Origin: an uncultured Prevotella sp. | Lineage (GTDB): Bacteria > Bacteroidota > Bacteroidia > Bacteroidales > Bacteroidaceae | Length of the DNA: 64,000 nucleotides | Direction of reading: 5' to 3' | Assembly: GCA_905233165.1 (NCBI GenBank) | Contig: CAJODL010000001.1 | Location: 627,927-691,926, forward strand | In this document: positions 168 through 43,393 of the stretch, piece after piece | Layout: every line of letters begins with the position of its first letter | Position numbering within the stretch: the stretch's first letter is position 1 | Position numbers and translations under genes: made by a program | Notes under the pieces: generated by a model | Databases searched by the model: none | What the model was told of the DNA's origin: nothing | Seen by the model: the letters and a program-made list of their open reading frames with translations, nothing else

Positions 168-833
168 CTACCAAAATATAAATTGTCCAATAATTTCTTT
201 GCATACATACCAGAGTGCTGTAAATACATTTTTTGAACTCCAATAAGCAACGATTATTGTGCATATATTAAACAGAATGGCTGTCGCAATATAAGTATAC
301 GAAAAATATAGTGGACGTTTGTTAATATCAGTTTGGTAGTTGCCTATTTGATTTTTCCATGTATTTGCATGAAAGGCAATAGATATTCCTATTATTATGT
401 CTATACACCATAAAAATGTGGTAGAGCAGATAGAACGAAAAGCCAAAAGAATGTATGTGTAAATTGGAAAACAGTAAGGAGATAGGTCAACAAAAATCAG
501 TGTTTTATCATTACCGCTTGTTGTTATCAGACCACTATCGTTTTTAGCTTCGAAAGAGTGTATTCTTCTAAGAAATAAAATTGCGACCAAGGTATGTGTT
601 AACTCGTGTGTGAAGGTCTCAAACCATTGCAGATTACTTTTTATATATCTTTTAACAATAAAGAACAGGACTACTCCTATTGTTGTCCACTGATAGAGTT
701 GCAGATTACCAATCCATGTACCATACCTTGGGTGAATAATACTGTATATTACATCCCATATTGTGGCAAGGATAGCCAAGGAAAGTAATGTAAATAATAC
801 TGTTAATATGATGTATTTTGTTCTATATATCAT
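168..833 (-). CDS. Polytopic membrane protein with HExxH motif (M50-like metallopeptidase candidate)
   Basis: ORF 221 aa; several hydrophobic segments; HELTH motif followed by LSPYCFP segment; 1 bp from the upstream gene in the same operon. Confidence 0.6.
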   Translation of the reverse strand: MIYRTKYIILTVLFTLLSLAILATIWDVIYSIIHPRYGTWIGNLQLYQWTTIGVVLFFIVKRYIKSNLQWFETFTHELTHTLVAILFLRRIHSFEAKNDSGLITTSGNDKTLIFVDLSPYCFPIYTYILLAFRSICSTTFLWCIDIIIGISIAFHANTWKNQIGNYQTDINKRPLYFSYTYIATAILFNICTIIVAYWSSKNVFTALWYVCKEIIGQFIFW

Positions 834-834
834 G

Positions 835-1281
835 TTACTGATTATTATTCTTTCTCAGAATTTCTGCTACAATTAGTGCAGGACAATCCACATAATCACC
901 ATTTTTATTTAGGGTTATCATTGTAATTCCCTTCAAATATTTTACGGAGAAATCCTTTCTCTGTATAGTTTCAAGCAATCTCCTCGCTTGTGGCATTTTA
1001 TTGTTGTTTGCATGCAGAAGTATCATTGCGTTAGAATTGTATTCTATTTCGAAAAGACTGCTTCTTTTTTTTGTCTTCAGACCTTGACTCGTATAATGTT
1101 TTTTTAGATAGAAATTAAGAGTGTCCACATGAATAGGCACGAATAAAGCTTCTGTAGGCAGTATTTGCTCTTCCGTATTCTCTGCTGCCATTTCCTTTAA
1201 ACCACAATGATTTGATGCGTATATTCCAAGTATCACGATAATTATCATGCCTAAAATGAAATATATCAATTTGTCTTTCAT
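835..1281 (-). CDS. Hypothetical protein with N-terminal membrane anchor
   Basis: ORF 148 aa; single N-terminal TM segment; 1-bp gaps to both neighbours. Confidence 0.75.
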   Translation of the reverse strand: MKDKLIYFILGMIIIVILGIYASNHCGLKEMAAENTEEQILPTEALFVPIHVDTLNFYLKKHYTSQGLKTKKRSSLFEIEYNSNAMILLHANNNKMPQARRLLETIQRKDFSVKYLKGITMITLNKNGDYVDCPALIVAEILRKNNNQ

Positions 1282-1282
1282 A

Positions 1283-4200
1283 TTATCTCATGTATTTTTT
1301 AAAACTGTTACTATTTACAATATTTTCAAGCACATTGTTAATCATATTCCAGTAAACTTTTTTTTCTAAGGTAAGTTGCTTAAATCTAAAATATACCACC
1401 ATAAATTTGTTATCATCTAATGATTTGATTTTATCAGAAGTAATGTCATGGTTACAAATGATAACTGCGAGCATTCTATCATCATGTGTCTTGTTCCCTA
1501 AGCTTAATGTGCCAGTTTTTGCATATAAATGATACCCCTTTAATGTATTTAACTCTTTTGCTGTTCCTTTTTGAATACAACTGAACATTCCTCTATATAG
1601 ATTATTTTGATAGAATTCCAAGTGTTTTTTTTGAGTATTTCCGTTTCTACCTAGCCATGGATCTTTGAACTTTGATTTTCTCGGCATTACACTAGCGTGA
1701 AAATCAGGGTGAAGAGAGTATAGCTTACCATACATCTCTGCCATCTTCATTGGAGTAACTTTAACAGGCGAAGCACCTAAAGTATATTGTCTTAGGCGCT
1801 CAGCAGGTGTTAGTTGAGAATCTTCCATCTCATAGTTGTATATTGTTGATGCTTGAGGAAAAGCCCAAGCGAATCTGCTTGAAACCTTAGCTTTGTTCTC
1901 TAAATTATTTTCCTTATAAAGATTAGTATTAATAAATTCATATCTCAAGGAATCAACCCACCCAATAAAAGTAGGCATATGGAAGTTCTTTGTGAGACCA
2001 TCAAACAAAATTTGTTCAGAGGTAGCAGTTGGGGCATTACGGAAAGTATATATCTGTCCATTCTGCTCTATTCTGAATCGTGGAAAATCATTGATATCTT
2101 TTGAAATAACAAATATCTCATCCTTTGCGTTCGCTAAACTTTCATAATGTCCCAAATATGTAATTAGTGCATTGTAATAATTACTTGATTGTGATAAGTA
2201 AAATTCGTTGTCAATCCATTGTCCATCTCCATTTTCATCGCTTGCTATAGATTTGAATGGTCTCTGGTCACTATAAGTGTATTTTGGACCAAATTTTTTT
2301 ATGTAATAATATTTGTCATCTGATTGTGCAACTTCTTTATTCTGAATTACCTTGGGACTCATAAGCTCTAGTCCTGCCCAATTTATGTCTTGACTCTGCG
2401 ATGTAACAGCAGCATACGTGATAGGCTTAAGAGAGGATCCAGGACCAGGTCTCATATAGCATAAGTTGAGATTGCCAAACAGATTTTCGTCTCTCATTGA
2501 GTTCGGATTCATGTAACTTTGTGTAGCTAATTCTTCAATTAGAGTTTCATCATTAGGATCTATAGAACCTGAAAGTTTGTTGTCAGCCATGAGTCTGACA
2601 TTTCCTAAACCGTCTATTGCTACAACAGAACATTCATGTCCTGTTTGTTTAAGTGTTTCTGATATATGTTGGGTAAGTTTGCTATCTAATGTAACAAAGA
2701 CCATGTCTCTGCTCCCTGTTCCTTGTTTGCTATATGCCACTAAATTAGAAAAATCTCTAAGCCATAGACATTTTTCTTTTAATGGATAAAAGAACCGACG
2801 CTTTCCATTAATAACAATATTCTTTACGAGTATGTCCTGTTCGTCTCGACCATATTGATAAGTAAGAGATTCTTTGCTTTTTGTATCCCTTAGCTCCAAG
2901 AAATTTTCTGGTGAAATCTGGAATACTGCAGTTGATGCAGTGTAGTCTTTCATCTCTCTATGAAGTATTACTTTGTAGTTTTCTCCAATATGACCATCTT
3001 TCATGCGGCTATCCACAATAGCCAAATCTACATTTTTAGGTAGCCATGACTGTGGTATAGAGTAAACAATAAGTCCAGGTAGTTTTGTAAGCATCAATGC
3101 ACTGCTATCATTTGTAGCAGATATTTCAGAATATATATTTCCTTTCCATGCTTTTTTATCAAATTCAGGGCTTTGTAAACTGAAATAAGCATTGTTAAGC
3201 GCTAATTCAAAAGTATTAAGATCTTGATGTCTTAGATGAATAATATTTCCATTTGAATTTTTGCGTTTTAAATTATTAGTAAAAGCCTGATATAGTGAGT
3301 AGGTGAAATCATTTATCAGCCCTTCTTCCTTTAATTTATTTACATGCTCACTTAGGTGAATTTTTTCTTCAATATCTTTTACCAGCGAACTTATGTCCTC
3401 TTCATTAACTAATTGATGACCTCGTGCTGGATACTGAGAAAGAAGACTATTTATCCCTGCTAATTCATCTTTACTTGTTGCCATTGCAGTAGAGATGTTA
3501 AACTCTTCCGCATTCATTTTGTCTCCTTGCACTTTGTTGTTAGCATAAAGCTCACCATAGTTATTCCCGCAGAAATAAACTATTAAAGCTATAACGATAA
3601 ATATCAAAAAGAAGGTCGTTTGTGGTCCGCGCTTTGTAAAAGATTTCAGACCTTCTTTTAATTCAGAGTTGTCTTCATCCTTTGGATGATAGCATGCAAA
3701 TACAACAAAAGCAGCAATCCACATTGCAAACATTATTAAGGTGAATCGCGCATTCTGACTGAGGAAGGGAAAATCCTGACCAAAGAAAACCGTTCTATTG
3801 GTTACAGCCATCCACTCGAAGGTGCTCTGTACCACAAATAGCAATGCTATTGCAAAAGTAAGAGTCCTTCCAGCAGGAGAATTATTCTCATTTTGGAATG
3901 TTCTCCATAATAGTACAAGTGAGAGTAATATCATTGTAATTGGTACAAGCCAAGACAATTCTCCTATCACGTATCTGGATAGTATCACATCACTAATCTG
4001 GGTGTTCCATGTAACACCCTTCTTGAAGTGTGGCAGTAAAGACATAATACCATCATCAGTGACACGCTTCTCTCCTTTATTGATATGATATTGTAGGAAC
4101 CACTGATTCTGAGCTGCATTTAACAACCTTTGGGAATTGCTGTGATTATAACTCTCATTCTGCATTATCCTACCTACAGTCTGTGTATGAATAATAGCAC

Positions 4201-6499
4201 GATACTTAAAATGAAGATTGTTAGTTTGGAAATAGTCATATCCTATTGTTGCTGTACTAACGACAAATGTTAGCCATACAAAGATAGCTATAGCTCCTTT
4301 CCACTTAAAATCATATCTTTTCCATAGCCATGTAACCAATAATAAGATAAAACCCATAATTAAAGGCAAAAGGATAAAGAACAGTCTTGAGGTGCTGATG
4401 AACCCGAGGAAAGAATCTTCTTGATTATAGGCTGTCCATACACAGTATGGAAGGAATATAACCATAACAATTACTAAGAATACAAGAACTGTGAAAAGGG
4501 GAAATCCTGCAGCTTTTCCTGCAGTGTGGTCATAATATCTGTATTTCAAAAATGAATATAGGATTATCGAATAATATATGCATTCAAAAATGAAAAACAT
4601 TATAGCATAGCCAGGATCCCCTATGAATAATGCAGCCAAAGTGAATAGCGCATTAGCAATTCTGTAACCAACGGGTAATCCTCGAGCTATAATGTATTCA
4701 TTAAGAATGAAGAATGATACAGGTACCAATATATTTAATCCTACAATGCTTATATGGGCAAATTTTGTTATCAATACAATAGCTATCGGTAAAAATAAAA
4801 ATATACTATAGACAATCTTTTTCCATAATTTTCTTAGTTCAAAGTTTGGTAAGTATTTTATGCAAATCCAGAGTGATAGTGCAGTAACAGGCATTAGTAT
4901 CCATAAACCTATGGTTATTAATATTGGATTCTCCAATAAATTAGGAAGTTTCATTGTATATCTTAAGAACTCATTGAGTGTTATGTCCGTTACTGGTGGG
5001 AAGACTGCAATTCTCCACAATAGGTATATTCGAATAACAAAAAAAGGAATGGCAAATAGGCTTGCTATCATCACAACCTTTGATGTATGTCCTTTTGTAA
5101 ATATCATTGAATATAAGAAGGTAAGGAATAGAATACCAAAGACAAGAAAAAGTATTGTGATATCCTTTACCCATATATTATCCTCTCCAGTTATAGGGCT
5201 TGATTGTCTGAGATTGCATACGTTGAAATGCCATACTGCTCCGTTTTTGGCTGTCAATGTGTTTAATAGTTGGATAGTATTGATACTATTATCATTGAGT
5301 ATAGCCTTAAAAGGAGTTTGGCTGTCATCTATCATGTAATTAATATTGCCATTAAAATTATACTCATTATTCTCATTTTCAAACAATGGGTAGTAAAAGG
5401 CCTCATTTACATTTGTCTTGAGAAGTGAGGCTGTCTTTGATGTGACCGCAATGACTTTCTGCCTATTCTCTGCCTCCGCATCATCTGCCAGTCCTGGAAA
5501 ATTATTTATGTATGGGAACTGATATCTTAAACGAATGCAACCATCACTATAGACAGCCTTTAAAGGACGAGTGGCTTGGCTCCCTATACCAATGTAGTAA
5601 TAAGTGTCTTTATCCAATTCTTCTGTCTCTAACGCATTAGAGGCAATGAATTCCTTACCATCGCAGAAAAGCTTGACATCTTTCAAACTTTGTGGATATG
5701 TCATATAAAAGACATCTTGCTCTTTGTCCTCATGATTCCTGACTAAGAATACTTCATGTAATGTATTTAAAAGTTCTTCTTCTCCAGTTTCTTCATAAGA
5801 TGTACTGCTATGTAGAATGTCATATAAATTATATCCTATTTGAATAGGTAGTTTGAATGATGGTTCATATTTTTTCTGAGTGTTGTTCGATAGATGATTG
5901 AATGATACTACAACCTTTGTAGAATCCTTTTTGTCTTCTTTGATTGTTCTAATAGAGATGTTGCAAATTATAGAATCATTCTGAAGTGTTATTTTATCAT
6001 GAAAAGAAGGCAATTGTCCTTTGTTAATCAGTCTTCCTGTTCTACTATCATCTACTTTCGCAAATATTGGTTCGCTGAGGATGTTATAGTGGAGTATGCA
6101 GTTCTGGCTATCACTGTTTTTAGGAGTTATTGACGCAAACCCCTCGTAATTCTTTTTATCAAAGAAAGATTGAGTTTTGTTTTTTCCTACCAGTAAGACA
6201 GAATCCTTTTTGTCCACCCCTTGCATTACCAACACATGATAGTCAGCATTACTATATACAGAAATATTAGGATGCAGGTAGTTGAGTGTTATTAATACCG
6301 ATGCTACTGCTGTTATAGTCCAAGGAATAATTAATTTAGCCTTGTCTTTTATAAATGAACACCATAGAAGTGTAAGCGTACATATTACAAAATATGCGGA
6401 AAAGGTAAAGGAGAAAATAATGTTTGCTATAACTCCAATGATTATGCTTATAATACAGAGGAGACCAATACCAATAAAACCCTTCGTTTTTTGTTCCAT
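1283..6499 (-). CDS. Giant polytopic protein with C-terminal penicillin-binding transpeptidase domain; candidate FtsW/RodA (SEDS)-PBP fusion
   Basis: ORF 1738 aa; ordered motifs SSLK (SxxK), SSN (SxN), KTGT (KTG); multi-TM N-terminal half with FtsW-like segments (e.g. SDVILSRYVIGELSW, FGQDFPFLSQNARF). Confidence 0.8.
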   Translation of the reverse strand: MEQKTKGFIGIGLLCIISIIIGVIANIIFSFTFSAYFVICTLTLLWCSFIKDKAKLIIPWTITAVASVLITLNYLHPNISVYSNADYHVLVMQGVDKKDSVLLVGKNKTQSFFDKKNYEGFASITPKNSDSQNCILHYNILSEPIFAKVDDSRTGRLINKGQLPSFHDKITLQNDSIICNISIRTIKEDKKDSTKVVVSFNHLSNNTQKKYEPSFKLPIQIGYNLYDILHSSTSYEETGEEELLNTLHEVFLVRNHEDKEQDVFYMTYPQSLKDVKLFCDGKEFIASNALETEELDKDTYYYIGIGSQATRPLKAVYSDGCIRLRYQFPYINNFPGLADDAEAENRQKVIAVTSKTASLLKTNVNEAFYYPLFENENNEYNFNGNINYMIDDSQTPFKAILNDNSINTIQLLNTLTAKNGAVWHFNVCNLRQSSPITGEDNIWVKDITILFLVFGILFLTFLYSMIFTKGHTSKVVMIASLFAIPFFVIRIYLLWRIAVFPPVTDITLNEFLRYTMKLPNLLENPILITIGLWILMPVTALSLWICIKYLPNFELRKLWKKIVYSIFLFLPIAIVLITKFAHISIVGLNILVPVSFFILNEYIIARGLPVGYRIANALFTLAALFIGDPGYAIMFFIFECIYYSIILYSFLKYRYYDHTAGKAAGFPLFTVLVFLVIVMVIFLPYCVWTAYNQEDSFLGFISTSRLFFILLPLIMGFILLLVTWLWKRYDFKWKGAIAIFVWLTFVVSTATIGYDYFQTNNLHFKYRAIIHTQTVGRIMQNESYNHSNSQRLLNAAQNQWFLQYHINKGEKRVTDDGIMSLLPHFKKGVTWNTQISDVILSRYVIGELSWLVPITMILLSLVLLWRTFQNENNSPAGRTLTFAIALLFVVQSTFEWMAVTNRTVFFGQDFPFLSQNARFTLIMFAMWIAAFVVFACYHPKDEDNSELKEGLKSFTKRGPQTTFFLIFIVIALIVYFCGNNYGELYANNKVQGDKMNAEEFNISTAMATSKDELAGINSLLSQYPARGHQLVNEEDISSLVKDIEEKIHLSEHVNKLKEEGLINDFTYSLYQAFTNNLKRKNSNGNIIHLRHQDLNTFELALNNAYFSLQSPEFDKKAWKGNIYSEISATNDSSALMLTKLPGLIVYSIPQSWLPKNVDLAIVDSRMKDGHIGENYKVILHREMKDYTASTAVFQISPENFLELRDTKSKESLTYQYGRDEQDILVKNIVINGKRRFFYPLKEKCLWLRDFSNLVAYSKQGTGSRDMVFVTLDSKLTQHISETLKQTGHECSVVAIDGLGNVRLMADNKLSGSIDPNDETLIEELATQSYMNPNSMRDENLFGNLNLCYMRPGPGSSLKPITYAAVTSQSQDINWAGLELMSPKVIQNKEVAQSDDKYYYIKKFGPKYTYSDQRPFKSIASDENGDGQWIDNEFYLSQSSNYYNALITYLGHYESLANAKDEIFVISKDINDFPRFRIEQNGQIYTFRNAPTATSEQILFDGLTKNFHMPTFIGWVDSLRYEFINTNLYKENNLENKAKVSSRFAWAFPQASTIYNYEMEDSQLTPAERLRQYTLGASPVKVTPMKMAEMYGKLYSLHPDFHASVMPRKSKFKDPWLGRNGNTQKKHLEFYQNNLYRGMFSCIQKGTAKELNTLKGYHLYAKTGTLSLGNKTHDDRMLAVIICNHDITSDKIKSLDDNKFMVVYFRFKQLTLEKKVYWNMINNVLENIVNSNSFKKYMR

Positions 6500-6504
6500 G
6501 TAGA

Positions 6505-7230
6505 TTAAAATTTAAGTTTATATCCAAATGCTGCAGTCTCAGTTTTTACACCTTGTTCCTCTAACCATTCATATACAGTAATAACACTTACAGGCACTGT
6601 AGTCGGATCTTTATAAAACTCTTCCAGTTTCATATCATTCAGTGAAAGATTATCCAATATCATTCTCAGCCCTTCAGTGTTATGGCTTACCTTGTTAAGG
6701 TCAGAATTACTTTCTTTCAAGAAATTTACAGTTTGAGAAGCAATCTCCCAAAGTAGGAGACTGATTTGACTCTTCACTTCTGGAGTCATAGGGCGTTTTA
6801 TGTGGTTGAATAATTCGTCCCATTGGCCACTATAACGATGGTACATTGCTTGACTCCATTTCTTTTCCATGCATTCCTCCGTTTCAGCAACAGAATCCTT
6901 CTTCTTTATGTTTTCTTCTGTTGCTTTGGTTTCTTTTGGCATTGTTTCTTGAGACTCTTCTTTCTCTGCTTTCTGTTGCTTGTCTTCGTCTGTTTCAGAA
7001 TAGGAAACTTCTGCACAATCAGTATCCACTGAAGAATCCTCATTTATAATAGTACAGTTCCTGTATTCCACGGCCATACATGTCAATGTTAGTAGGGGTA
7101 TCCCTAGAATGACACATAACAACATTTGCCAGTAGTCGGCAAAGATTATTGGACTAATAAAAGGCAATACTATGGTTGTTAGTATTGTTATTGCTTCTAT
7201 TGCAATCAATATATAATAAATCTTTTTCAT
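6505..7230 (-). CDS. Membrane-anchored hypothetical protein with charged Glu/Lys-rich linker
   Basis: ORF 241 aa; two N-terminal TM segments, then acidic/Lys-rich stretch; operon context. Confidence 0.75.
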   Translation of the reverse strand: MKKIYYILIAIEAITILTTIVLPFISPIIFADYWQMLLCVILGIPLLTLTCMAVEYRNCTIINEDSSVDTDCAEVSYSETDEDKQQKAEKEESQETMPKETKATEENIKKKDSVAETEECMEKKWSQAMYHRYSGQWDELFNHIKRPMTPEVKSQISLLLWEIASQTVNFLKESNSDLNKVSHNTEGLRMILDNLSLNDMKLEEFYKDPTTVPVSVITVYEWLEEQGVKTETAAFGYKLKF

Positions 7231-7244
7231 CGTTCTCTATGTGC

Positions 7245-9524
7245 TCAAGTTGTTTTTATTTCTGGGATGTCACAATTTTTGTCCAATACTCTGTAAGGGT
7301 AGGGGAAGAGACTTTCGTATAGCATATCGTTGTTTCGCTGTTCTACACAAGGTGTTAACAGAATGCTACTATTATCATCTTTTGCATAGAAATCTTTTCC
7401 ATCGTAAAATAGTGTGTATTTGCGTTTGTCAAATGTTTGTCTGTTTTCTCCCTCATATTCGTCATCAGAGATATAGAAATGAGTGTTTTCATTACAATTG
7501 TCTATTACCAGTTCACCACGCATAATTTTTACTATGTCATTATTTCCTGCATCAAGATTAACTTCTTTATCTTCATTCTTTGTCTGTACTGTACTTTCTA
7601 AAATATCAAAATGCATCAAATTACGAATTTTTGATACACACATGTCGAGGTGGTCTTTCCATGTTTTTTTGTAATTATCTGCAATAACTATTTCCGTATT
7701 ATCATTTGTCTCTGATAAAATCCTATCAAACTTTTTCTCCATTCTTGACTTTTCGCTGCTTCTCTTGGTAACATCAACAGCAATAGGAATTCCTATCATG
7801 TCAGATTGCTTGCTTATCTGAATAGATTTCAGCGGACCTATCAGGCAACCTTTTTTCAGTTGTTCATTATTAAGAACTACAATTCTGCCTTCCATGTGAT
7901 ATATCTTCTCTAAAATATTTATTGTGGCAGTTTGGAAAGGTTTATATTTAAAGGCTCTTCCGCTAAGTATTATATTTTCAAACCTGTTCTCTTTGACGTT
8001 AGTTACAATTTTCTTTATTATCTTGTTGATAGTCGATTGGATAATGTTAAGATTATCGCCAATATCTCCACGTTTCGCAATGTAGTCAATAATGGTGGTT
8101 ACATTCATTCCCTCCTCAATCTTTAGGTTGCTATTACTGTCGTTTATGATAGGGTTCTCCTTCTTCTTGTAATTTTCAATGATATTCTCTAATCTGTATA
8201 AATCAGCTTCCTCGGCTTCAGAAAGAACTTTTTTTATAATATTTTTTGCCTTCATTAGACCTCCCATTGTGACGATATAATTCACGAATATGGCATAAGT
8301 CAAAGCATTTCCCGCCCCAACAAATCCCGAGCGGTATATACTAACAGCATTACTGCCATTTTCTACTTTGATGATAGAAAAGTCCGTCGTACCCTTACCT
8401 ACGTCAATGACAAGATAATTACCTCGTCTCACATTCGTGTTTCCATTACAAAACCATGAAACAAACGAAGCATCGCTTTCAGAATAGGAGTGTATGTCAA
8501 AGATAACCTCTTTCATCTTCTCTGGCAACAGTTGTCTGAATTCTTCAGAATCTGCTTTCTGTCGCACATCATTGATGAAGTCGGAAAGTTGTCCCTGTTC
8601 CATTACGTTAGGCACGAGAAGGTACAAACGGATTCCACATTTCACTCCGTCACGATTTTTCTCACATACTTCCATTACTATCTCATGGAGGAATCTCATA
8701 ACGATGCCTTGATGCAGGTCGTTGAGATCTATCTCTTCAGGACATTCACCTGAAAGGTATGATATTTTAATGTTTGGCAGACGTTGGCCTTTGTTGCTGT
8801 CGTCCCTTTTGGTAATAAAATCCAGCAGAGGATCTTTCTCACCAGGTTTGGCAATGACATTTTTGTCTCTATTTTGATTGTTGGTTAACTCTTTCGGTAG
8901 GAAATATACACTCCTGAAAAGTTCTTCGTCTGCATCTTCTTGTTGGTCGAATGTACGAGGTTTTATTTCATCTGATTCTAAACCATAAAAATGCTTGGCA
9001 CAATTTTTGAACAACTCACTATATCGAAACTGGTCCTCTCTGTTTATCAGCATCTGACTCGCTTCTGAACCGACATCCAACACTACCTCATAGATATTTT
9101 CTTGCGGAATACAGTCTATTATAAACTTTCCCTTGTATTCCACACCCTGTTCTTCATAATGGAAAACTATAGTGTATGTTTCTGCGCTTTCGCTTCCTTG
9201 ATTGTATATCTCCCAGTTGTTACCATCTTTTACAAAACGGAAATTACTTCCAATATACTCCTCTTCATCTTTATTTTTATTTGTAAGAGTAATATCAAGC
9301 TGATAACCCTCCTCAGAAACAGAATCGATATAAACTTTTCTATCGTGTTTTCTACTTGTGTAGGAAACCAGTTTCAGGTTCTCAACCTCGAGTTTTAGTA
9401 ATTCTACTCCTGATCGTGTATTGGCAAACAGTTGTTTCTCGTCATTTATCTCTTGCTCGACATTGTCATATAGTTTTAGGTTATATGCTCGCTCGCCACT
9501 TTTAAAATAGAGATGGTAAATCAT
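7245..9524 (-). CDS. Actin/Hsp70-fold ATPase-like protein
   Basis: ORF 759 aa; VVLDVGSEAS (phosphate 1-like), VIDVGKGTTDFSIIKV (phosphate 2), IILSGRAFKYKPF (adenosine motif-like). Confidence 0.75.
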   Translation of the reverse strand: MIYHLYFKSGERAYNLKLYDNVEQEINDEKQLFANTRSGVELLKLEVENLKLVSYTSRKHDRKVYIDSVSEEGYQLDITLTNKNKDEEEYIGSNFRFVKDGNNWEIYNQGSESAETYTIVFHYEEQGVEYKGKFIIDCIPQENIYEVVLDVGSEASQMLINREDQFRYSELFKNCAKHFYGLESDEIKPRTFDQQEDADEELFRSVYFLPKELTNNQNRDKNVIAKPGEKDPLLDFITKRDDSNKGQRLPNIKISYLSGECPEEIDLNDLHQGIVMRFLHEIVMEVCEKNRDGVKCGIRLYLLVPNVMEQGQLSDFINDVRQKADSEEFRQLLPEKMKEVIFDIHSYSESDASFVSWFCNGNTNVRRGNYLVIDVGKGTTDFSIIKVENGSNAVSIYRSGFVGAGNALTYAIFVNYIVTMGGLMKAKNIIKKVLSEAEEADLYRLENIIENYKKKENPIINDSNSNLKIEEGMNVTTIIDYIAKRGDIGDNLNIIQSTINKIIKKIVTNVKENRFENIILSGRAFKYKPFQTATINILEKIYHMEGRIVVLNNEQLKKGCLIGPLKSIQISKQSDMIGIPIAVDVTKRSSEKSRMEKKFDRILSETNDNTEIVIADNYKKTWKDHLDMCVSKIRNLMHFDILESTVQTKNEDKEVNLDAGNNDIVKIMRGELVIDNCNENTHFYISDDEYEGENRQTFDKRKYTLFYDGKDFYAKDDNSSILLTPCVEQRNNDMLYESLFPYPYRVLDKNCDIPEIKTT

Positions 9525-9541
9525 AATTTTATATCGTTTTA

Positions 9542-10606
9542 TTAGTTTCGTATTGTTATTTTTGTCAATTTAGGATAGTTCTTGTTTGTTGGGTTGAGAT
9601 TGCTTCCCAAGGTTTTCAGCTCCGTCACCTTAAACCCTCTTCTTATGTATTCTCTAAGTTCAGATGATCTGTAATATGAAACCTGTTGTGGAATGCCGTC
9701 CACCATAAATGTAGTATTCCCGAATGGTGAAGGACTGTTGGTTATAAGCATCTCTTTAATTTTCGGGTCCTGTGTTGCTAATAGTTCTGTGATAAAGTCA
9801 TAATAACTTACATTTATTGCTTGAACTTCAGAGGTTGTTTTATCAGACTCTCCCCTTAGATATATTGTGCAATTATCCTTGAGGAAAAGAGTATCATTCT
9901 TGCTTATTATGTTTGCCTGAAGCTTCCAGTTGATGTCATCTGTGTTTTTTACTTTTTTCTGATAATCAATATAGTATTCTATTGCCTCAAATTTTGTGTC
10001 TCCAAAATAAACAGTACATGTTTTAGAATCATAAATAGCATTGACTTTGTATTTTGAACTTGTCTTTTGAGTTATGTTATCTATTATGGAATTCTCGTTT
10101 GTATTACCGATCAATCTTGGGAGAAGAGTTATGATTATTCCCAGTACTATACCGGCAACCAATCCTGCACCACTTATATACAACCATTTTCTGTCAATAG
10201 GCTTCTTCGTAGAATAGGGTTTCGCTATTGTTTCTGATTGTTTCCACTTAATGATTGTATCTGGACTTGCTATTCCGTTTAAAAAGATGATTCTTCCTGT
10301 CTTTACATCTGCAACATACAAACTCTTGAGCAGAATGTTGCATAAATCTGATGCAGGACCTGCACCTATGTTATTTGTGATATATTCGCCTATCTCTTTA
10401 TAGATGTCAGCATTATTCCTGTCAGCGTAATTCAGTATTAAGAGTTCGTCCAGAAGATGAGTGTGGATAAATTCTTTGAAGAAACTATATACCTTAGAAG
10501 ATTCCTCATCCTCATGATTAATCAAAAACAGAATCAGCCTTTTCCCGTCATCCTTGTAAATGACGTTTTCTTTTGGAACCAATATCTCGTATTTCATATT
10601 TCCCAT
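9542..10606 (-). CDS. Single-pass membrane protein, hypothetical
   Basis: ORF 354 aa; internal TM segment WLYISGAGLVAGIVLGIIITLLP; operon context. Confidence 0.75.
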   Translation of the reverse strand: MGNMKYEILVPKENVIYKDDGKRLILFLINHEDEESSKVYSFFKEFIHTHLLDELLILNYADRNNADIYKEIGEYITNNIGAGPASDLCNILLKSLYVADVKTGRIIFLNGIASPDTIIKWKQSETIAKPYSTKKPIDRKWLYISGAGLVAGIVLGIIITLLPRLIGNTNENSIIDNITQKTSSKYKVNAIYDSKTCTVYFGDTKFEAIEYYIDYQKKVKNTDDINWKLQANIISKNDTLFLKDNCTIYLRGESDKTTSEVQAINVSYYDFITELLATQDPKIKEMLITNSPSPFGNTTFMVDGIPQQVSYYRSSELREYIRRGFKVTELKTLGSNLNPTNKNYPKLTKITIRN

Positions 10607-10620
10607 AGGTTAAGGTGTTG

Positions 10621-11289
10621 TTAAAGGGGTACAATCCGATAAACATCCCCTAATAGAATCATTGCCTTGTTGCCCATGTCTTTAGGCTGTTTTATCATGT
10701 ACACTTTGTAGTCTTTACGGTCCTTTTCTTTTATCGTGTTCTTTTGCTCTACAGAGCCTGCAAATTCTACGCTTTGATATTCCTGCATCAGGCTGACCGT
10801 TGATTCGTAAATCTCACTCCCATCAGAAAGATTCCCTTTCTTTTTCCAATTCTTGGGATCAGCCAGTTTACCATTGATGTAGCCCTCTACTATTCCGATT
10901 TTATAGGATCTATATTTAATCCCATTTAGAGATTGCGTTTTTAGAGATGCCAGATATGTCGGCATTCTCGAATTTCTATATTTGTAGCTGCCGGAGGTCT
11001 TGTCATACCAACTGGTCTTCATCTTTCTGTTGGCAAAATCAAGGAATAGAGGAGGAATGTCGTTTTCAATGATTTCCTGCTTCTGGCAGGCAGCCCTCAA
11101 CAAATCCTTGTTTGCCCTTGATGGAGGCGTGTTGCCAACCTTGGTGATAAATCTACATAACTGCATCAGTTTATGATAAAGCTCATTTTGCACAGGCATC
11201 AGTTCGTTTCTCGTCAATCTTGCGTCTTGGGCATTGGTTTGACAAGTAAAGGCTATTAGTAATATGATGATAATGATTCCTTTCTTCAT
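10621..11289 (-). CDS. Secreted hypothetical protein
   Basis: ORF 222 aa; signal peptide MKKGIIIIILLIAFTCQTNAQ. Confidence 0.75.
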   Translation of the reverse strand: MKKGIIIIILLIAFTCQTNAQDARLTRNELMPVQNELYHKLMQLCRFITKVGNTPPSRANKDLLRAACQKQEIIENDIPPLFLDFANRKMKTSWYDKTSGSYKYRNSRMPTYLASLKTQSLNGIKYRSYKIGIVEGYINGKLADPKNWKKKGNLSDGSEIYESTVSLMQEYQSVEFAGSVEQKNTIKEKDRKDYKVYMIKQPKDMGNKAMILLGDVYRIVPL

Positions 11290-11304
11290 ATTCGTCCACT
11301 ATCT

Positions 11305-12141
11305 TTATCGTTTCCGTTTTCCCTCTTGGTAAATATAGTGTCTCAAAACTTCCCCGGAACCTTGCTGCGTAATTTTTATCAAGAAGCATCTTGCATCCTT
11401 TTCTTTGTTGGGAGGGATATATCCACTAAAAACATCAAAATAGTCAACATTAATATTTATATTGTCTGGAGTAGAGTATGTATAATATGCCCGTTCGCTT
11501 TTTATAAGACGATTTTCCTCTCCAAAATATCCTTGTTTTGTATTTATAACACTATGCAGCTCAAATTCCCATGCTCCACCTTGGCTGGATAAATGGCTGA
11601 CATTTTTGTTAATATAGAATTCATATTCATTTGTGGTAATCTGATCCTCTGGTATGAGATACATTCGAAAATCAATACTCCTGATTGATAAGCTATTATA
11701 ATCTTTTCCTCTCCATATAACAGTCATTTCTATAGGGGTGTCCTTTATGCGTTGTTGCAGGTCATCCTCAATGTTTCTTTGCAACATACCCTTAACCTTA
11801 TATACACTGGTTCCGTAATAGTTTTCGATGCTTGTAACTTTAAATACATGAGTGATGCTATGATCCTTCAATATATACTGTTTATACCAATTCAGAAAAC
11901 TGGTCATCTTGATTTCATCCGAATTAAGATAAAATGTGTTGATATCCTTTTGGTATGCTGCTGCGATATCTTCCGGACTTAATTTTTCTATAGGATTATT
12001 CATTTCAGAAATCTTATAGAAAAATTCCCTTACAGCACGCTCTATATCTGCATTCACATTGTATCTGCTTTGGGCAGACAATGCTGTAGGGGGGAATGCA
12101 AGGCATAATAGCAATATGGTAATCCGAATGCTTGGTTTCAT
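11305..12141 (-). CDS. Secreted hypothetical protein, first gene of operon A
   Basis: ORF 278 aa; signal peptide MKPSIRITILLLCLAFPPTALSAQ; -7 element TACATTTG on the minus strand ~55 bp upstream. Confidence 0.75.
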   Translation of the reverse strand: MKPSIRITILLLCLAFPPTALSAQSRYNVNADIERAVREFFYKISEMNNPIEKLSPEDIAAAYQKDINTFYLNSDEIKMTSFLNWYKQYILKDHSITHVFKVTSIENYYGTSVYKVKGMLQRNIEDDLQQRIKDTPIEMTVIWRGKDYNSLSIRSIDFRMYLIPEDQITTNEYEFYINKNVSHLSSQGGAWEFELHSVINTKQGYFGEENRLIKSERAYYTYSTPDNININVDYFDVFSGYIPPNKEKDARCFLIKITQQGSGEVLRHYIYQEGKRKR

Positions 12142-14018: not shown

Positions 14019-16352
14019 TTACAATTCCGTCATTTGCTTCTCTCCTGTGAATATCATTTGGATGAAAATTCCCCAGAACATAGCTATGAATGAGAACATT
14101 ATTAGGAAATCACGCATGAAGAAAATTTTATATCCAAATATAGTGATTTTCTCGACAATTTTATGACCATCTTTTGTTGCTTCTCGCAGATTATCTACCT
14201 TTTTTATGTCTGGAATATCGTTGGGATCATTAATATCATTTAATCTGTTTATGATAGCCTTTCCATAGCTTACCCATTGGCTGTCATTTAATATTTCTTC
14301 ATTGGAGTTGCTGCAGTAAGCAATAGTATCAACAATATACGATTTTCCATTGACGTCTTGTTGAACATGTTGGTCGTAGTAATCACCAATATAGCTACCT
14401 CTCTCTAAGAATTTCTCTCCTAAAAAGTTAATAACAACCACTCCAACTAATAATGAAATGCAGTAGCTGATTATCAGGAATTCAACCCCCCTAAAGATTT
14501 TTCTTAAATTATTGCTTGCAGGCATAATCCTGTTGATCTCGTACATAATAAACATGAAGACCACCATGGAAATAGCTATAGCAGTATGCCACCTTGGACT
14601 TGAGTCAAAAAATGACACATATATATCAAATCCTAAAGACATTGTTAACCAACCAGCAGTAATAGCGGCAACCAACCTCGGAAACAAAAGATGGAGACTT
14701 GAAATAGGATGTAAAGCAGGAAGCCCCAATTTAGGTGTCTTTATTGATATATAAAATAGAGCGGATAATATAAAGAAAAACCAAATTGGAGCCCATTCCC
14801 CCCATTCTCCCCATTCCTTACCTATTACTGTATTGAACACCCCAATACATATTGCATAAAAGGATAAAAATGAGAATATTATATATGTTCTCTTAAAAAC
14901 GGTTGCTCTTCTTTTTCTTATGATTAAGTCTTCCTTTGATGCATTATTCCATATCGAATATATTGTTGGTGGGCAGATAATAGCTACTATTCCTATAGTA
15001 ACGAAGTAAATGATATTGTCTGAAAAAGTCTCATTCAAATCATTCAAAACATTCAGATCTATTAAACGTAGCAGCCAAAATAGTAAAATAAATACAATGC
15101 ATGAAACTATAATAAAATTCAAGCCTTTAAAGAAATGCAAATGAATAACGTCATTAAAATCATAACGCTTAAGAAACCATCGAGAAATAAGCTCCCTGTT
15201 TCTATCATTGGTGGCTACCAATGAAACTGATATATTGTCCTTACTATTATTAATTTTGAAGTATTCAATTAGAGTGTCAGTATTGCAGATGTGTTTTTTT
15301 CCAGAATCTTTTTCTTTCATTGTGAAGCATACACGCCTCATCTCCTCCTCAGGTTCAGAAAACCACAAGTTTCTGTCATATTCAAAGTCTTTTTCTGCTT
15401 GAGGATTCATAATATCTTGCACCCATAAATCCTCAGCTTTAACAAGTTCATTTGCATACAAGACTTTTATAGACTCTTTTCTCTGTTCAATTTCATCCTC
15501 ACTAACATTATCTTTTCTCTGTTCAATTTCATCTATAGCCTCTCTCGTCAGCTTTCTATAATAGTAGTACTCACACTTGTGCATTAATGCAGAGAAATAG
15601 AAGTTTGACATCAACCCCGAATACATCTGATCATAATACCGACTATTTTGGAAAACATCAGAATGTTTCAAATCGAACATGAAATCTAATAGCAATTTGC
15701 GTAAGAAACCAACGATATCTTTTCTTTTGTCCTCTTCTTCATAAAGATAAATGCTTTTGCCGTTTGTCTTTGTCAAGTTCATGAGCCATAAAGTCGAATA
15801 AGAATGAAGTATGTCAACTGCATCTTGCAAAGATTCATACAACCCTTGTTTAATTCGATTTATAATTATACCCCCTTGTGTGTTATCTTCTAATGGAAAA
15901 CGGCTCCTGATAAGTTGTTCTAAGAAACGTCCCCCAGAACTGCCATCTTGCTTATTGTCATCGGATGTGATTTTTAAAGGAAATTTTGTGTAATATAGTT
16001 CTTTAATTGTTTCGGTTAATTTGTCTGTGGCATCATTTCTATATGGCAATTCAAATATCACCTCTTCCATATGTGCCATATTCATTCCTTTAGTTGTGCC
16101 ACCGTTTTTTTCCCTAATTTCTTCGACACTATATCCATATATTGATTCTTCCTCTACCTTATATACACTATAGTGTAATCTGAAGCGTACTGAATTTGAG
16201 GTGATAGTAACGCTTACGGGATATTTGGGTGACATAAGATTGTCTTCGGAGGGGCCGAAATATGCAGGCAAATCTACATAATCGTATATTGCTACTCCAT
16301 CGTTAACTTTTGATATGCTCTGATTTAAACGAAAGAATCTGCCGTTATTCAT
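14019..16352 (-). CDS. Large multi-pass membrane protein, hypothetical, last gene of operon B
   Basis: ORF 777 aa; soluble N-terminal half, ~8 hydrophobic segments in C-terminal half; 4-bp gap to upstream gene. Confidence 0.75.
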   Translation of the reverse strand: MNNGRFFRLNQSISKVNDGVAIYDYVDLPAYFGPSEDNLMSPKYPVSVTITSNSVRFRLHYSVYKVEEESIYGYSVEEIREKNGGTTKGMNMAHMEEVIFELPYRNDATDKLTETIKELYYTKFPLKITSDDNKQDGSSGGRFLEQLIRSRFPLEDNTQGGIIINRIKQGLYESLQDAVDILHSYSTLWLMNLTKTNGKSIYLYEEEDKRKDIVGFLRKLLLDFMFDLKHSDVFQNSRYYDQMYSGLMSNFYFSALMHKCEYYYYRKLTREAIDEIEQRKDNVSEDEIEQRKESIKVLYANELVKAEDLWVQDIMNPQAEKDFEYDRNLWFSEPEEEMRRVCFTMKEKDSGKKHICNTDTLIEYFKINNSKDNISVSLVATNDRNRELISRWFLKRYDFNDVIHLHFFKGLNFIIVSCIVFILLFWLLRLIDLNVLNDLNETFSDNIIYFVTIGIVAIICPPTIYSIWNNASKEDLIIRKRRATVFKRTYIIFSFLSFYAICIGVFNTVIGKEWGEWGEWAPIWFFFILSALFYISIKTPKLGLPALHPISSLHLLFPRLVAAITAGWLTMSLGFDIYVSFFDSSPRWHTAIAISMVVFMFIMYEINRIMPASNNLRKIFRGVEFLIISYCISLLVGVVVINFLGEKFLERGSYIGDYYDQHVQQDVNGKSYIVDTIAYCSNSNEEILNDSQWVSYGKAIINRLNDINDPNDIPDIKKVDNLREATKDGHKIVEKITIFGYKIFFMRDFLIMFSFIAMFWGIFIQMIFTGEKQMTEL

Positions 16353-16356
16353 AATC

Positions 16357-18858
16357 TTATTGCATCTTTAAAGTTTTGATATAGCTCTCAATGTGAGCAA
16401 CCATATTTTGATATTCTTCTGTTGAGACTTTGTCTACATAATTAGCAACATTGTTTTGAGCATCAAACTGTCCCTTAAAATAGTTATATTCTTCCCACAT
16501 TTCAGGCCACTGACGTATAGTACCAAAAGCTGTTAAATGAACTAATTGTGTTAAATGCTCTAACATTCCTCCCAAATTTACATTCTTACTAATAAAATCC
16601 GTGACAAGTACAGAGCCTTTTGTGTTAAAAATACTATCATCTTCAGGAATGTCAACATCCGCTAACATCTTTCGATAGTGATATTGGAGGCTCAATACCT
16701 CTTGATATTTTTTATTAGCATTTTTCCTTACAGCTCCCTTTACAGGATTGAAAATAGACTCAACTATCTTATATATTTCCTTTGGAGAAAGTTTTAGTAT
16801 ACCTGAGTGCTCCAACCGGTTTTCCATCAGTTTTATAAGGTTATATAGAAATAGTTGTGGAGTATTAGTCGGACATGCTCCGATAGCTATTTGCCAATAA
16901 TCTTCTATTTGGTTCAATCCTTCTGCAAGCAGACGCTCATAAATAGCCGATGAATATGCCGAAATAAATAGGAAGAAGAATTTTCCGTTAGGTCCCATAC
17001 CTAATTTATATTTATCATCTCCAACCTTTGTATGCTTACTTATATCTTCTAATAGTTGATATCCGTAATGATTTCCAGTAGGATCTGTTAAAAGGTAGTC
17101 AAGTAAGATGATATCATATTTTTTTAATCGTAAGGCTTCCTCTGCTTCCTTTTCAGTTTCTGCATATTCTATTATAAATGGGCTATGCTCTATTGCATGC
17201 ATTTGAAATTCTGATTTGTTTAATAATTGATTTTCAAAATCTTTTTTCTTTTCATCATTCCATTTTTGGGGAAAAATAATCTTTATTCCCCTATATACTG
17301 TGTTTAGTTTAAAATCAATTGAACTTATTTCCTCTTCAATTAATTTAATTTCTTTGTTTGCAACTACACCTGTGTAGATAAGTTTGTAGATAAGTTTTTC
17401 TACGTTACTATTTGAATTATTCGTTTTCGTTAACTCTTGCAGTTCCAATGAAAAATTTTTAATATTTGTGTCGCTTTTGTTACGTCCATTAACCTCAGAA
17501 ATTTTCTCTTGCAGGCGTGTTTGTATATGTTTTATCTCTGATTCTTGTACACCCTCATATAATTGTATGTTTAGAAGAAAACATTTCTTTTCTTCACATA
17601 CCTCTATATCCGTTGTACCTAAATCAGCTTCATTAATCCATGAATGTTTTTTTCTTGTTATATTGCCCCATATTGTGGCGACAAAAGCTTTTAATAGTTT
17701 ATTCAGTTTTAGTGGTTTAGAAAGATCGATAATTTTATCTTTAATTTCTGAAGCCTTATCTATTGAAAAACATTTAATATTTACTCTGTCTGAAAGTTCT
17801 GATGTCTTTTCGAATGACATCGGTAAATATGAAACATTTTCGGTAGTAATATCAACGTCGTTTGCAGTGGAGTTAATTAAAGAACGAATTTCTGTAAGTT
17901 TTTGTTCGTTTATAGGACTTTTAAATTCAAGATATAAATCATCACCCTTGACTATATTCATCTGATTAAAGTGTCTATCAGGGATGATGCTTCCTGTGTT
18001 TGAGTTTTCATTAAGTTTAAATTGTTTTTGTAGAAGATTTTTTATAATGGTTAGTTTACAATTCCACTGATGAGGGGCGTTTTCTTTTAAGTCATTAGCC
18101 ATAGCTTGTACAGCCTTATCGTCAACCAACAAAATACGCCATTTCTTACTCTTTATTCGTTCAATTATAGGAGTCTCAGTTAAATATTCTTGTTCTATCA
18201 ACTGTCGTATAACACTTTCTGAATGGAAAATGAAGGGTGAAACAGCCACAGCATGGGAACCCGCTAAATACGCTTGAGACGCAAGTCGAGCATTTAAGTC
18301 TGCGTATTCTTTAGCAACAGAAAGATTATATAGATGCTTTTGATAATTTCTATATATACTTTCTACTGCCTCATAAAAAACCTTTTCTATTTTTTCTTTA
18401 TCACTATATAGCGGAACGAGGTAGTTCCAGATGCTATTATCCATTATTTGAAATGAACGGGGAACAGAATTTGGCAAACTTTCACCATCATACATACTCT
18501 TAACAAAAAAATCTGTTAACACTAAATGTAAGATAGGTATATAGACTTTATTTTTATCATCAGTCTTTTTTAGGACAAAATCTGTTTGAGCAAAACTATT
18601 TACGTTGCCACTAGATGCATATCCTGTCAATATATCTTTTGGCGTGTGAAGAATCAATCGTATAAGGTTACCTTTTTCTTCATCTAATTTTTTATCCTCA
18701 TTCCATAGCGGAGTTTTACTATCTTTATTTAAATAACGAAAAAGAAAATCAAAAAAGAAAATTTTCTCATTATTAGAGTTCACGACATTATAAGAAAAAG
18801 TTTTGTTTTCGTCATTATCTCTTTTTATAATCAGTTTTGCTTCTAAATAATTACTCAT
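16357..18858 (-). CDS. Response-regulator-like protein with apparently split REC domain
   Basis: ORF 833 aa; KKWRILLVDD (REC beta1-like), and ~340 aa later EYAETEKEAEEALRLKKYDIILLDYLL (beta2-alpha2-beta3, phosphoacceptor Asp-like) plus FFFLFISAYSS (beta4). Confidence 0.65.
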   Translation of the reverse strand: MSNYLEAKLIIKRDNDENKTFSYNVVNSNNEKIFFFDFLFRYLNKDSKTPLWNEDKKLDEEKGNLIRLILHTPKDILTGYASSGNVNSFAQTDFVLKKTDDKNKVYIPILHLVLTDFFVKSMYDGESLPNSVPRSFQIMDNSIWNYLVPLYSDKEKIEKVFYEAVESIYRNYQKHLYNLSVAKEYADLNARLASQAYLAGSHAVAVSPFIFHSESVIRQLIEQEYLTETPIIERIKSKKWRILLVDDKAVQAMANDLKENAPHQWNCKLTIIKNLLQKQFKLNENSNTGSIIPDRHFNQMNIVKGDDLYLEFKSPINEQKLTEIRSLINSTANDVDITTENVSYLPMSFEKTSELSDRVNIKCFSIDKASEIKDKIIDLSKPLKLNKLLKAFVATIWGNITRKKHSWINEADLGTTDIEVCEEKKCFLLNIQLYEGVQESEIKHIQTRLQEKISEVNGRNKSDTNIKNFSLELQELTKTNNSNSNVEKLIYKLIYTGVVANKEIKLIEEEISSIDFKLNTVYRGIKIIFPQKWNDEKKKDFENQLLNKSEFQMHAIEHSPFIIEYAETEKEAEEALRLKKYDIILLDYLLTDPTGNHYGYQLLEDISKHTKVGDDKYKLGMGPNGKFFFLFISAYSSAIYERLLAEGLNQIEDYWQIAIGACPTNTPQLFLYNLIKLMENRLEHSGILKLSPKEIYKIVESIFNPVKGAVRKNANKKYQEVLSLQYHYRKMLADVDIPEDDSIFNTKGSVLVTDFISKNVNLGGMLEHLTQLVHLTAFGTIRQWPEMWEEYNYFKGQFDAQNNVANYVDKVSTEEYQNMVAHIESYIKTLKMQ

Positions 18859-18869
18859 GATAAAGTGAT

Positions 18870-20039
18870 TTAATTATTCGTTTCTCCAAGTTCAATATTT
18901 TTTATTTCATCATTAAGAATAGAAATTAATCTTAAATACTCTATATCTTGTTTACCTTCTTGAAGAGATTTTTCATCAAGGTTGGAAATGATGTTTGTTA
19001 TGTTTTTGAACTTGTCATCAGATAATATTTTAACTTTTATTTCACTTAGGTTTCCTTTAATAGCCAGTTCATATAAATCAAAGAGTAGTCCACGAGTTGT
19101 TAATTTGGATTCTACATAATCAAGGAGATCTTTAGATGTTTGTCCGGCATCTTTAAGAATTTCACCAAATTCACCTGTATGTTGAAATAGGGCAATGGTT
19201 CTTACTGTTGTTTGGCTATCTAACCTTGGATAATCCAATACTCCAGAAATCTCGTTGCATTTAATGTCTTTATCATGAAGGATTAGATAAAGCTTCTCCG
19301 CATCTTCATTTAATGTTAGAAATTGTGTGGATAAAGCATCTATCCAAGCGTTATCTAACCATTTTTTATTTTCTTCATCTTTTACTGGAGAACCTTCCTC
19401 AATTGGCCAAACGGCATATACGACCACGTCGTCACTGAAATCATTCAAACGATAATACGAAAACCTGTGATAAATCCATGGAGCAGGTGGAGTTTCTCTA
19501 TCTTTAGTCAAATAAACATTAAATTTTTCTTGTTGTCCCTCATTCTTTAAGTTATCAGCTATCCATTGTGAACCTTTTGTTCGCATGAAATCTATTTTGA
19601 TTGACTCTTCATCACATTTCTTATATTTATCAAACAAATCCATATACAATTGAGAATCCTCTAACTTGTTTAAATCCATTAGAATCTTAAGTGTCTTAAT
19701 CCATTTATATTCATTATCTTTGTTTATTTTTTTTGAAGTTAGATCTTTGTCTATTATTTCTTTGTATTTTGAGACAAATGCTTCCAATTCTTTGTATGCA
19801 TCATTTATTATAGGTCGTATTTTTCCCTCTATTTCGTCCTTACCTTCATTCTTAATGTATGAAGGAAGTTCTTTTAAAACATCTTTCGCATTGATATTAT
19901 CTTTAATATCATTCCAAAAATAGTCACATAACTTCTTATCACTCATAGGAAATGGTGTTGAAGACTTTGGGTTAAACAGAACATCGTCCCTAAATGGACT
20001 ATTAAAGTAAGTTGAAAAGACGATAACTTTTTTACTCAT
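18870..20039 (-). CDS. Hypothetical protein encoded between histidine kinase and response regulator
   Basis: ORF 389 aa; overlaps HK gene by 8 bp; no family recognised. Confidence 0.75.
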   Translation of the reverse strand: MSKKVIVFSTYFNSPFRDDVLFNPKSSTPFPMSDKKLCDYFWNDIKDNINAKDVLKELPSYIKNEGKDEIEGKIRPIINDAYKELEAFVSKYKEIIDKDLTSKKINKDNEYKWIKTLKILMDLNKLEDSQLYMDLFDKYKKCDEESIKIDFMRTKGSQWIADNLKNEGQQEKFNVYLTKDRETPPAPWIYHRFSYYRLNDFSDDVVVYAVWPIEEGSPVKDEENKKWLDNAWIDALSTQFLTLNEDAEKLYLILHDKDIKCNEISGVLDYPRLDSQTTVRTIALFQHTGEFGEILKDAGQTSKDLLDYVESKLTTRGLLFDLYELAIKGNLSEIKVKILSDDKFKNITNIISNLDEKSLQEGKQDIEYLRLISILNDEIKNIELGETNN

Positions 20040-42955: not shown

Positions 42956-43393
42956 ACTTATATATTTATACGACGTTTTGGTTAGCTTAGTTTTAGTGTT
43001 TATTACACATTTCGGGTACAAAGATAAACATTTTTTTTAATAAATCTTCAAAATGTAAAAAATAATATTTATTTTGATTAATGTTTGGTTGGATAAAATG
43101 TAAAATCACCCTTCGTCTTTCACCTAAATTCTGCGGATATCTCCGAATTATAAAATCACACAGTTAATCTATGTTAAATTATTCGGCATTGGCGTATGTT
43201 TTTTGGTTAAAATTTTGAGTAATTTAGAATTTTTAGTAATTTTGCAAATGTCATTCGGGATACATCACCTTGATAGTGGGATAATAGAGTTTCATGATGC
43301 TTTTGGTGGTCGTTTTTCTGATGATAAGATTATATTTAAGATAAGTTTAATTTATTATATATTGTGCCATGAGAACACAAAATCTTTACAATT

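Follow-up and report, generated by a model that had tools for sequence, protein, structure and literature searches.

SEDS polymerases and class B PBPs are normally two separate partner enzymes, and the hand-over of the strand from one to the other, together with their joint switch-on, is a central open question that is usually studied with artificial fusions. The locus described here raises the question of whether the two enzymes occur naturally in one chain and what such a protein may do in its host. In the window, that is, the whole stretch of 64,000 nucleotides of an uncultured Prevotella sp. that was analysed, positions 1283-6499 form one intact ORF of 1738 aa on the minus strand, to which all window coordinates given below also refer. 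The first-pass annotation had delimited this frame exactly and had read its product as a candidate SEDS-PBP transpeptidase fusion. The ORF, the motif conservation, the AlphaFold2 models and the structural superpositions agree with this reading: one chain joins a polytopic half, whose fold is SEDS-like (FtsW/RodA), to a complete class B PBP half, both presumably enzymatically active, an architecture that is well supported, as are the predicted folds.

The PBP half comprises a membrane anchor helix (residues 957-977, positions 3569..3631; helix 418-438 of the second model, hydropathy 960-978) followed by the pedestal and the transpeptidase domain (residues 978-1738, positions 1286..3568), and it has no class A glycosyltransferase domain. 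In hhalign this half matches PBP2 (96.8%, E 2.4e-10) and FtsI (79.7%), with FtsW at 0.1%. In the AlphaFold2 model of residues 540-1738 (pLDDT 76.0), residues 1113-1738 superpose on class B PBPs with Z 27-29 over ~375 residues. The SxxK (S1355-K1358 in GPGSSLKP, 2426..2437), SxN (S1438-N1440, 2180..2188) and KTG (K1661-G1663, 1511..1519) motifs, already noticed in the C-terminal half at first pass, are 100% conserved in the family alignment of 48 sequences, and since most of these are only ~20% identical to the window protein, this argues for retained catalysis. PF00905 scores the half at 21.2 bits, below its curated cut-off of 22.1.

The N-terminal half had been described as polytopic with FtsW/RodA-like segments, and hydropathy and the model of residues 1-965 (AlphaFold2 with the 48-sequence alignment, pLDDT 77.8, pTM 0.81) uphold the polytopic character. 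The FtsW/RodA-like segments hold by sequence for the part from ECL4 to TM10, while the earlier SEDS helices are recognised by predicted fold only, and across residues ~650-780 the helices are modelled with low confidence (pLDDT only 50-60). After a linker helix, which together with the SEDS-like domain takes up residues 446-940 (3680..5164), the transmembrane region does have, in the model, the SEDS fold on which the fusion reading depends: residues 462..939 superpose on 8p1u_A, the FtsW of a divisome, with Z 16.1 (294 residues, rmsd 4.6) in a VIA-align comparison with PDB chains. The second match is WaaL (Z 8.0), and the remaining chains are unrelated (Z <= 5.0); the SEDS match comes from VIA-align, Foldseek having found nothing significant for the N-terminal model as a whole. 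Profile comparison points the same way: region 430-960 matches FtsW in hhalign with 87% probability (E 4e-6) and PBP profiles with 0.1-0.4%. When the family profile of residues 755-945 (48 sequences) was searched against 2756 ORFs, these being all ORFs of the fetched loci, some of which were fetched for matching the window protein and others by Pfam, it recovered, besides family members, only FtsW proteins (E from 1.8e-5). FtsW proteins of same-genus genomes also match residues ~836-955 of the window protein, and this unprompted sequence match was the first independent hint of a possible SEDS ancestry.

The candidate catalytic aspartate of this half is D837 (3989..3991), the counterpart of E. 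coli RodA D262 and FtsW D297, which is present in 48/48 sequences and which hhalign pairs with the Asp in the “SDFIYA” stretch of FtsW; the role of RodA D262 is known from PMC6207328 and PMC10449877. In the same alignment FFGQDFPFLS falls on “VTGQPLPLIS”. Together with D837, the residues E847, F905, G907, Q908, D909 and P911 are conserved in 100% of the 48 sequences, and R767 and D628/G630 in 97%; a global alignment with RodA likens R767 to the PH1 Arg and D628xG630 to the PDxG-type motif of TM5. The ECL5 signature SYGG is absent from the 48 sequences, in which FFGQD is followed by PFLSLTSK or PFGSILSK (S914, then L/Q/I); in E. coli FtsW, Y379 and G380 are needed, and the Y379A and G380A variants are non-functional (PMC8765783). 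The PL2 motif (RodA W102, Q111) could not be located in the SEDS-like half, and PF01098 finds no match in the proteins of the window and of two related loci (L022 and L025). Because of the missing SYGG signature and the failure to reach the Pfam cut-off we call the first half “SEDS-like”, and we regard the whole protein as a very divergent form of the already known SEDS-PBP type.

These deviations have to be weighed against other readings of the membrane half. WaaL is also an enzyme of the GT-C type, and its place as second structural match, together with the loss of SYGG, would be consistent with an O-antigen ligase or polymerase (WaaL/Wzy-like) acting on another lipid-linked glycan, with the PBP half serving as an esterase or carboxypeptidase on the same glycan. 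We consider this unlikely, since the Z score of FtsW is double that of WaaL and no family other than FtsW comes up by sequence profile, the putative base lies at the position of the SEDS Asp, while in WaaL a His serves (PMC10449877), and the membrane half shares its chain with a complete class B PBP, pedestal included. Moreover, some substrate-binding elements of WaaL are common to SEDS proteins (PMC10449877), so the order FtsW, then WaaL is what one expects of a SEDS relative. The loss of the ECL5 Y/G, the unrecognisable PL2 and a sequence that has drifted strongly in the SEDS half relative to the PBP half could also be the marks of a degenerate scaffold, which does not polymerise and merely anchors or regulates an active transpeptidase. 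Such a scaffold appears to us just as improbable as a WaaL-like enzyme, because D837, E847, R767, FFGQDxP and D628xG are kept at ~91-100% per residue in 48 divergent sequences, a pattern that an active site would be expected to show.

That the two halves are separate genes read through by an error of assembly or annotation is scarcely credible. A split of the fusion over two frames at one locus (L045) is all that was found in its favour, and it is refuted by the homologues: the same one-frame architecture is present in nearly all of the 57 related loci, including those of isolates of Spirosoma, Emticicia, Taibaiella and Edaphocola. These loci, all in Bacteroidota, were obtained by scanning ~85,000 species genomes with an alignment of three full-length relatives as the query, after full-length homologues had first been met in another Bacteroidales genome and in Edaphocola, which belongs to another Bacteroidota lineage. 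The hosts include Prevotella, Spirosoma, Emticicia, Persicitalea, Taibaiella, Edaphocola, Chitinophagaceae and Saprospiraceae, the homologues are mostly 1,720-1,960 aa long, and their identity to the window protein goes down to ~20%. One homologue, from a Bacteroidaceae MAG (L075:8435-15610), is unusually long (2391 aa). In 35 genomes of the same genus no fusion homologue was found, only matches to FtsW-type proteins of 415-450 aa, in their C-terminal part, and the viral contigs and plasmids searched hold no relatives. Single-sequence searches with the window protein (PDB, Pfam, NCBIfam, PADLOC, PHROGs) gave only one marginal transpeptidase match. As the curated cut-offs of Pfam and NCBIfam miss both halves, the family appears to be unannotated, and since four of its members have no NCBIfam match, they are probably annotated as hypothetical.

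The preferred reading, a fusion of a SEDS-like protein with a class B PBP, is not that of the cell's sole RodA or FtsW, that is, of a core synthase of the elongasome or divisome. In the source genome (3.0 Mb), a PF01098 search finds FtsW and RodA only; both are ordinary and lie apart from the fusion, on contigs C1 and C11, respectively. Ordinary FtsW and RodA are likewise present in all 13/13 other host genomes that could be checked. The fusion is thus an extra gene, which would encode an additional synthase.

Ahead of the SEDS-like domain the protein bears three membrane helices (residues 1-78, positions 6266..6499; H2-28, H33-49 and H53-75 in the model), and between these and the linker helix lies a beta-rich, predicted extracytoplasmic insert (residues 79-445, positions 5165..6265), which is modelled confidently (pLDDT mostly 80-95) and by its place in the model should be periplasmic. 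The first-pass annotation had pointed to a long non-transmembrane insert of no recognised family, and residues ~80-443 indeed have no sequence match in Pfam, NCBIfam or PDB; the predicted structure, modelled within the larger N-terminal construct, likewise gave no convincing match. The insert is kept throughout the family, with P144 and G222 at 100% in 48 sequences.

The fusion gene belongs to a tight operon of eight genes, which starts at 12141 and ends at 168 and has intergenic gaps of 2-18 bp. Its constant neighbour (7245..9524) encodes a protein with phosphate motifs, which weak sequence similarities suggest may be an actin-superfamily (ASKHA, actin/Hsp70) ATPase: Pfam matches to Actin/MreB/DDR have E values of 0.002-0.05, and in hhalign it is matched in part to MreB, FtsA and DnaK (probability 12-45%), the motifs lying in register as expected. 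On inspection the invariant residues include D150-G152, a SESD connect-1-like stretch and D374xGKGTxD, and the two phosphate motifs, DxGSE and DxGKGTxD, hardly vary. This gene adjoins the fusion in 50/50 of the loci that leave space for it, and 49/50 have both genes on one strand; the seven loci of the 57 outside this count all begin at or near a contig end. We regard this link as the most interesting new fact of the analysis, and the constant adjacency suggests a compact, extra wall-building machine. Between the two genes lies that of a membrane protein (6505..7230), which has a positional counterpart in most loci, often with a “GYKLK”-type C-terminus, and the order ATPase, membrane protein, fusion is mostly kept. 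A 148-aa single-pass membrane protein follows the fusion (835..1281), and the related loci hold 42 homologous ORFs, most of them immediately after the fusion. The last gene (168..833) encodes a membrane protein resembling M50B-type zinc metalloproteases (HELTH; PF13398, 1.8e-8), counterparts of which also stand beside the fusion in L028, L044 and L075, close downstream in the last. The order of the three further operon genes (354, 222 and 278 aa; 9542..12141, gaps 15-18 bp) is kept in L028 and L029 only.

From the computed architecture, folds, motif conservation, gene linkage and co-existence with FtsW and RodA, we infer the catalytic activities, substrate channelling and partner roles of the module, and we consider it likely that the fusion is a single-chain peptidoglycan synthase additional to FtsW and RodA, with both activities. 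Its SEDS-like membrane half would polymerise lipid II, with D837 as the general base, and the growing strand would be handed directly to the covalently attached PBP half, where S1355 would cross-link it into the wall. Since the anchor helix 957-977 comes just after the SEDS C-terminus, the known topology of SEDS proteins and PBPs places the join in the cytoplasm without an extra crossing; the SEDS C-terminus and the PBP N-terminus both being cytoplasmic, one short loop and the anchor helix would suffice to join them with the topology unchanged. The putative ASKHA ATPase, probably with the intervening membrane protein, may position or switch the synthase from inside, as MreB and FtsA do for the standard synthases, and the predicted periplasmic beta insert and the 148-aa protein may take the role of an activator such as MreC or FtsN. 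One can tentatively go further and suppose, although we would sooner doubt than assert it, that the ATPase, the membrane linker, the SEDS-PBP with its own periplasmic activator domain and the small membrane protein make up a self-contained machine for wall building in Bacteroidota, a third one that differs from both elongasome and divisome; its polymerase, transpeptidase and activator would share a single polypeptide, and a cytoskeletal ATPase of its own would drive it.

With RodA-PBP2 and FtsW-FtsI the fusion has in common the two folds, the membrane topology, the catalytic Asp of ECL4, the SxxK/SxN/KTG set and the anchor before the pedestal. It differs from them in being one chain and not two, in its extra N-terminal helices bearing a beta domain of 360 aa, in the absence of the ECL5 SYGG and in scores below the Pfam thresholds, and its gene is linked to that of a putative ASKHA ATPase and not to mreBCD or dcw genes. 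The putative ATPase next to it, in turn, aligns in part with MreB and FtsA, at candidate connect-1, DxGxGTTD and adenosine-type motifs, but with 760-1000 aa it is far larger, having an extension at the N-terminus as well as an insert, and its profile similarity is weak and no lower to DnaK than to MreB.

The idea of a fusion is not wholly new, since the literature already refers to single-ORF SEDS-PBP fusions, citing the Rhodococcus RHA1 genome (PMC10449877); going by this mention, SEDS would precede PBP there too. RodA and PBP2 fused artificially work both in vivo and in vitro, and D262A blocks the activity of the fusion (PMC6207328). For natural fusions of the window-family kind we found no paper in the open-access literature; what is newly described here is the fusion family, together with the partner ATPase and the beta insert of 360 aa. 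A second type of fusion was found by curated families in Spirosoma fluviale (L144:3255-7310, minus strand): a protein of 1351 aa, in which, as in the window family, SEDS stands before PBP and an extra N-terminal region ahead of SEDS. Its SEDS and PBP sequences are canonical and detectable by Pfam, whereas those of the window family are divergent. By NCBIfam and inspection, its operon includes a PP2C phosphatase, two Ser/Thr kinases and an FHA protein, which is reminiscent of the actinobacterial PstP-RodA-PbpA-Pkn cluster, and relatives occur in 11/296 sampled genomes of the phylum (E < 1e-50). A common origin with the window family was considered and found unsupported (hhalign of the SEDS part 8.6%, no special similarity), and the kinase-linked type is probably, to judge by sequence, an independent fusion event.

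A natural fusion family fixes the SEDS:PBP stoichiometry and brings both enzymes and a putative activator domain into one chain with one ATPase partner, and it occurs in culturable species, for example, of Spirosoma, Emticicia and Taibaiella. Curated family models miss this predicted extra cell-wall synthase, a possible beta-lactam target, in Bacteroidota genomes; for a role in beta-lactam resistance, which we also considered, there is evidence neither for nor against.

Upstream of the operon, a group of four genes (14019-23499) encodes a histidine-kinase-like protein of 1155 aa containing an N-box, an 833-aa protein parts of which are receiver-like, one membrane protein and one protein of 389 aa. 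The group is without a clear Pfam match, and as part of the system it was dropped from consideration because it has no homologues near the fusion elsewhere. Next to it lies an ABC transporter set of the branched-chain amino acid type (23502-28453), with two permeases, two ATPases and a binding protein, the gene of the latter being preceded by a methyltransferase gene. Further on, positions 38555-43021 encode a helicase-like protein of 1488 aa with DUF4011, AAA_11/12 and an MTES_1575 nuclease domain, which is possibly a defence gene.
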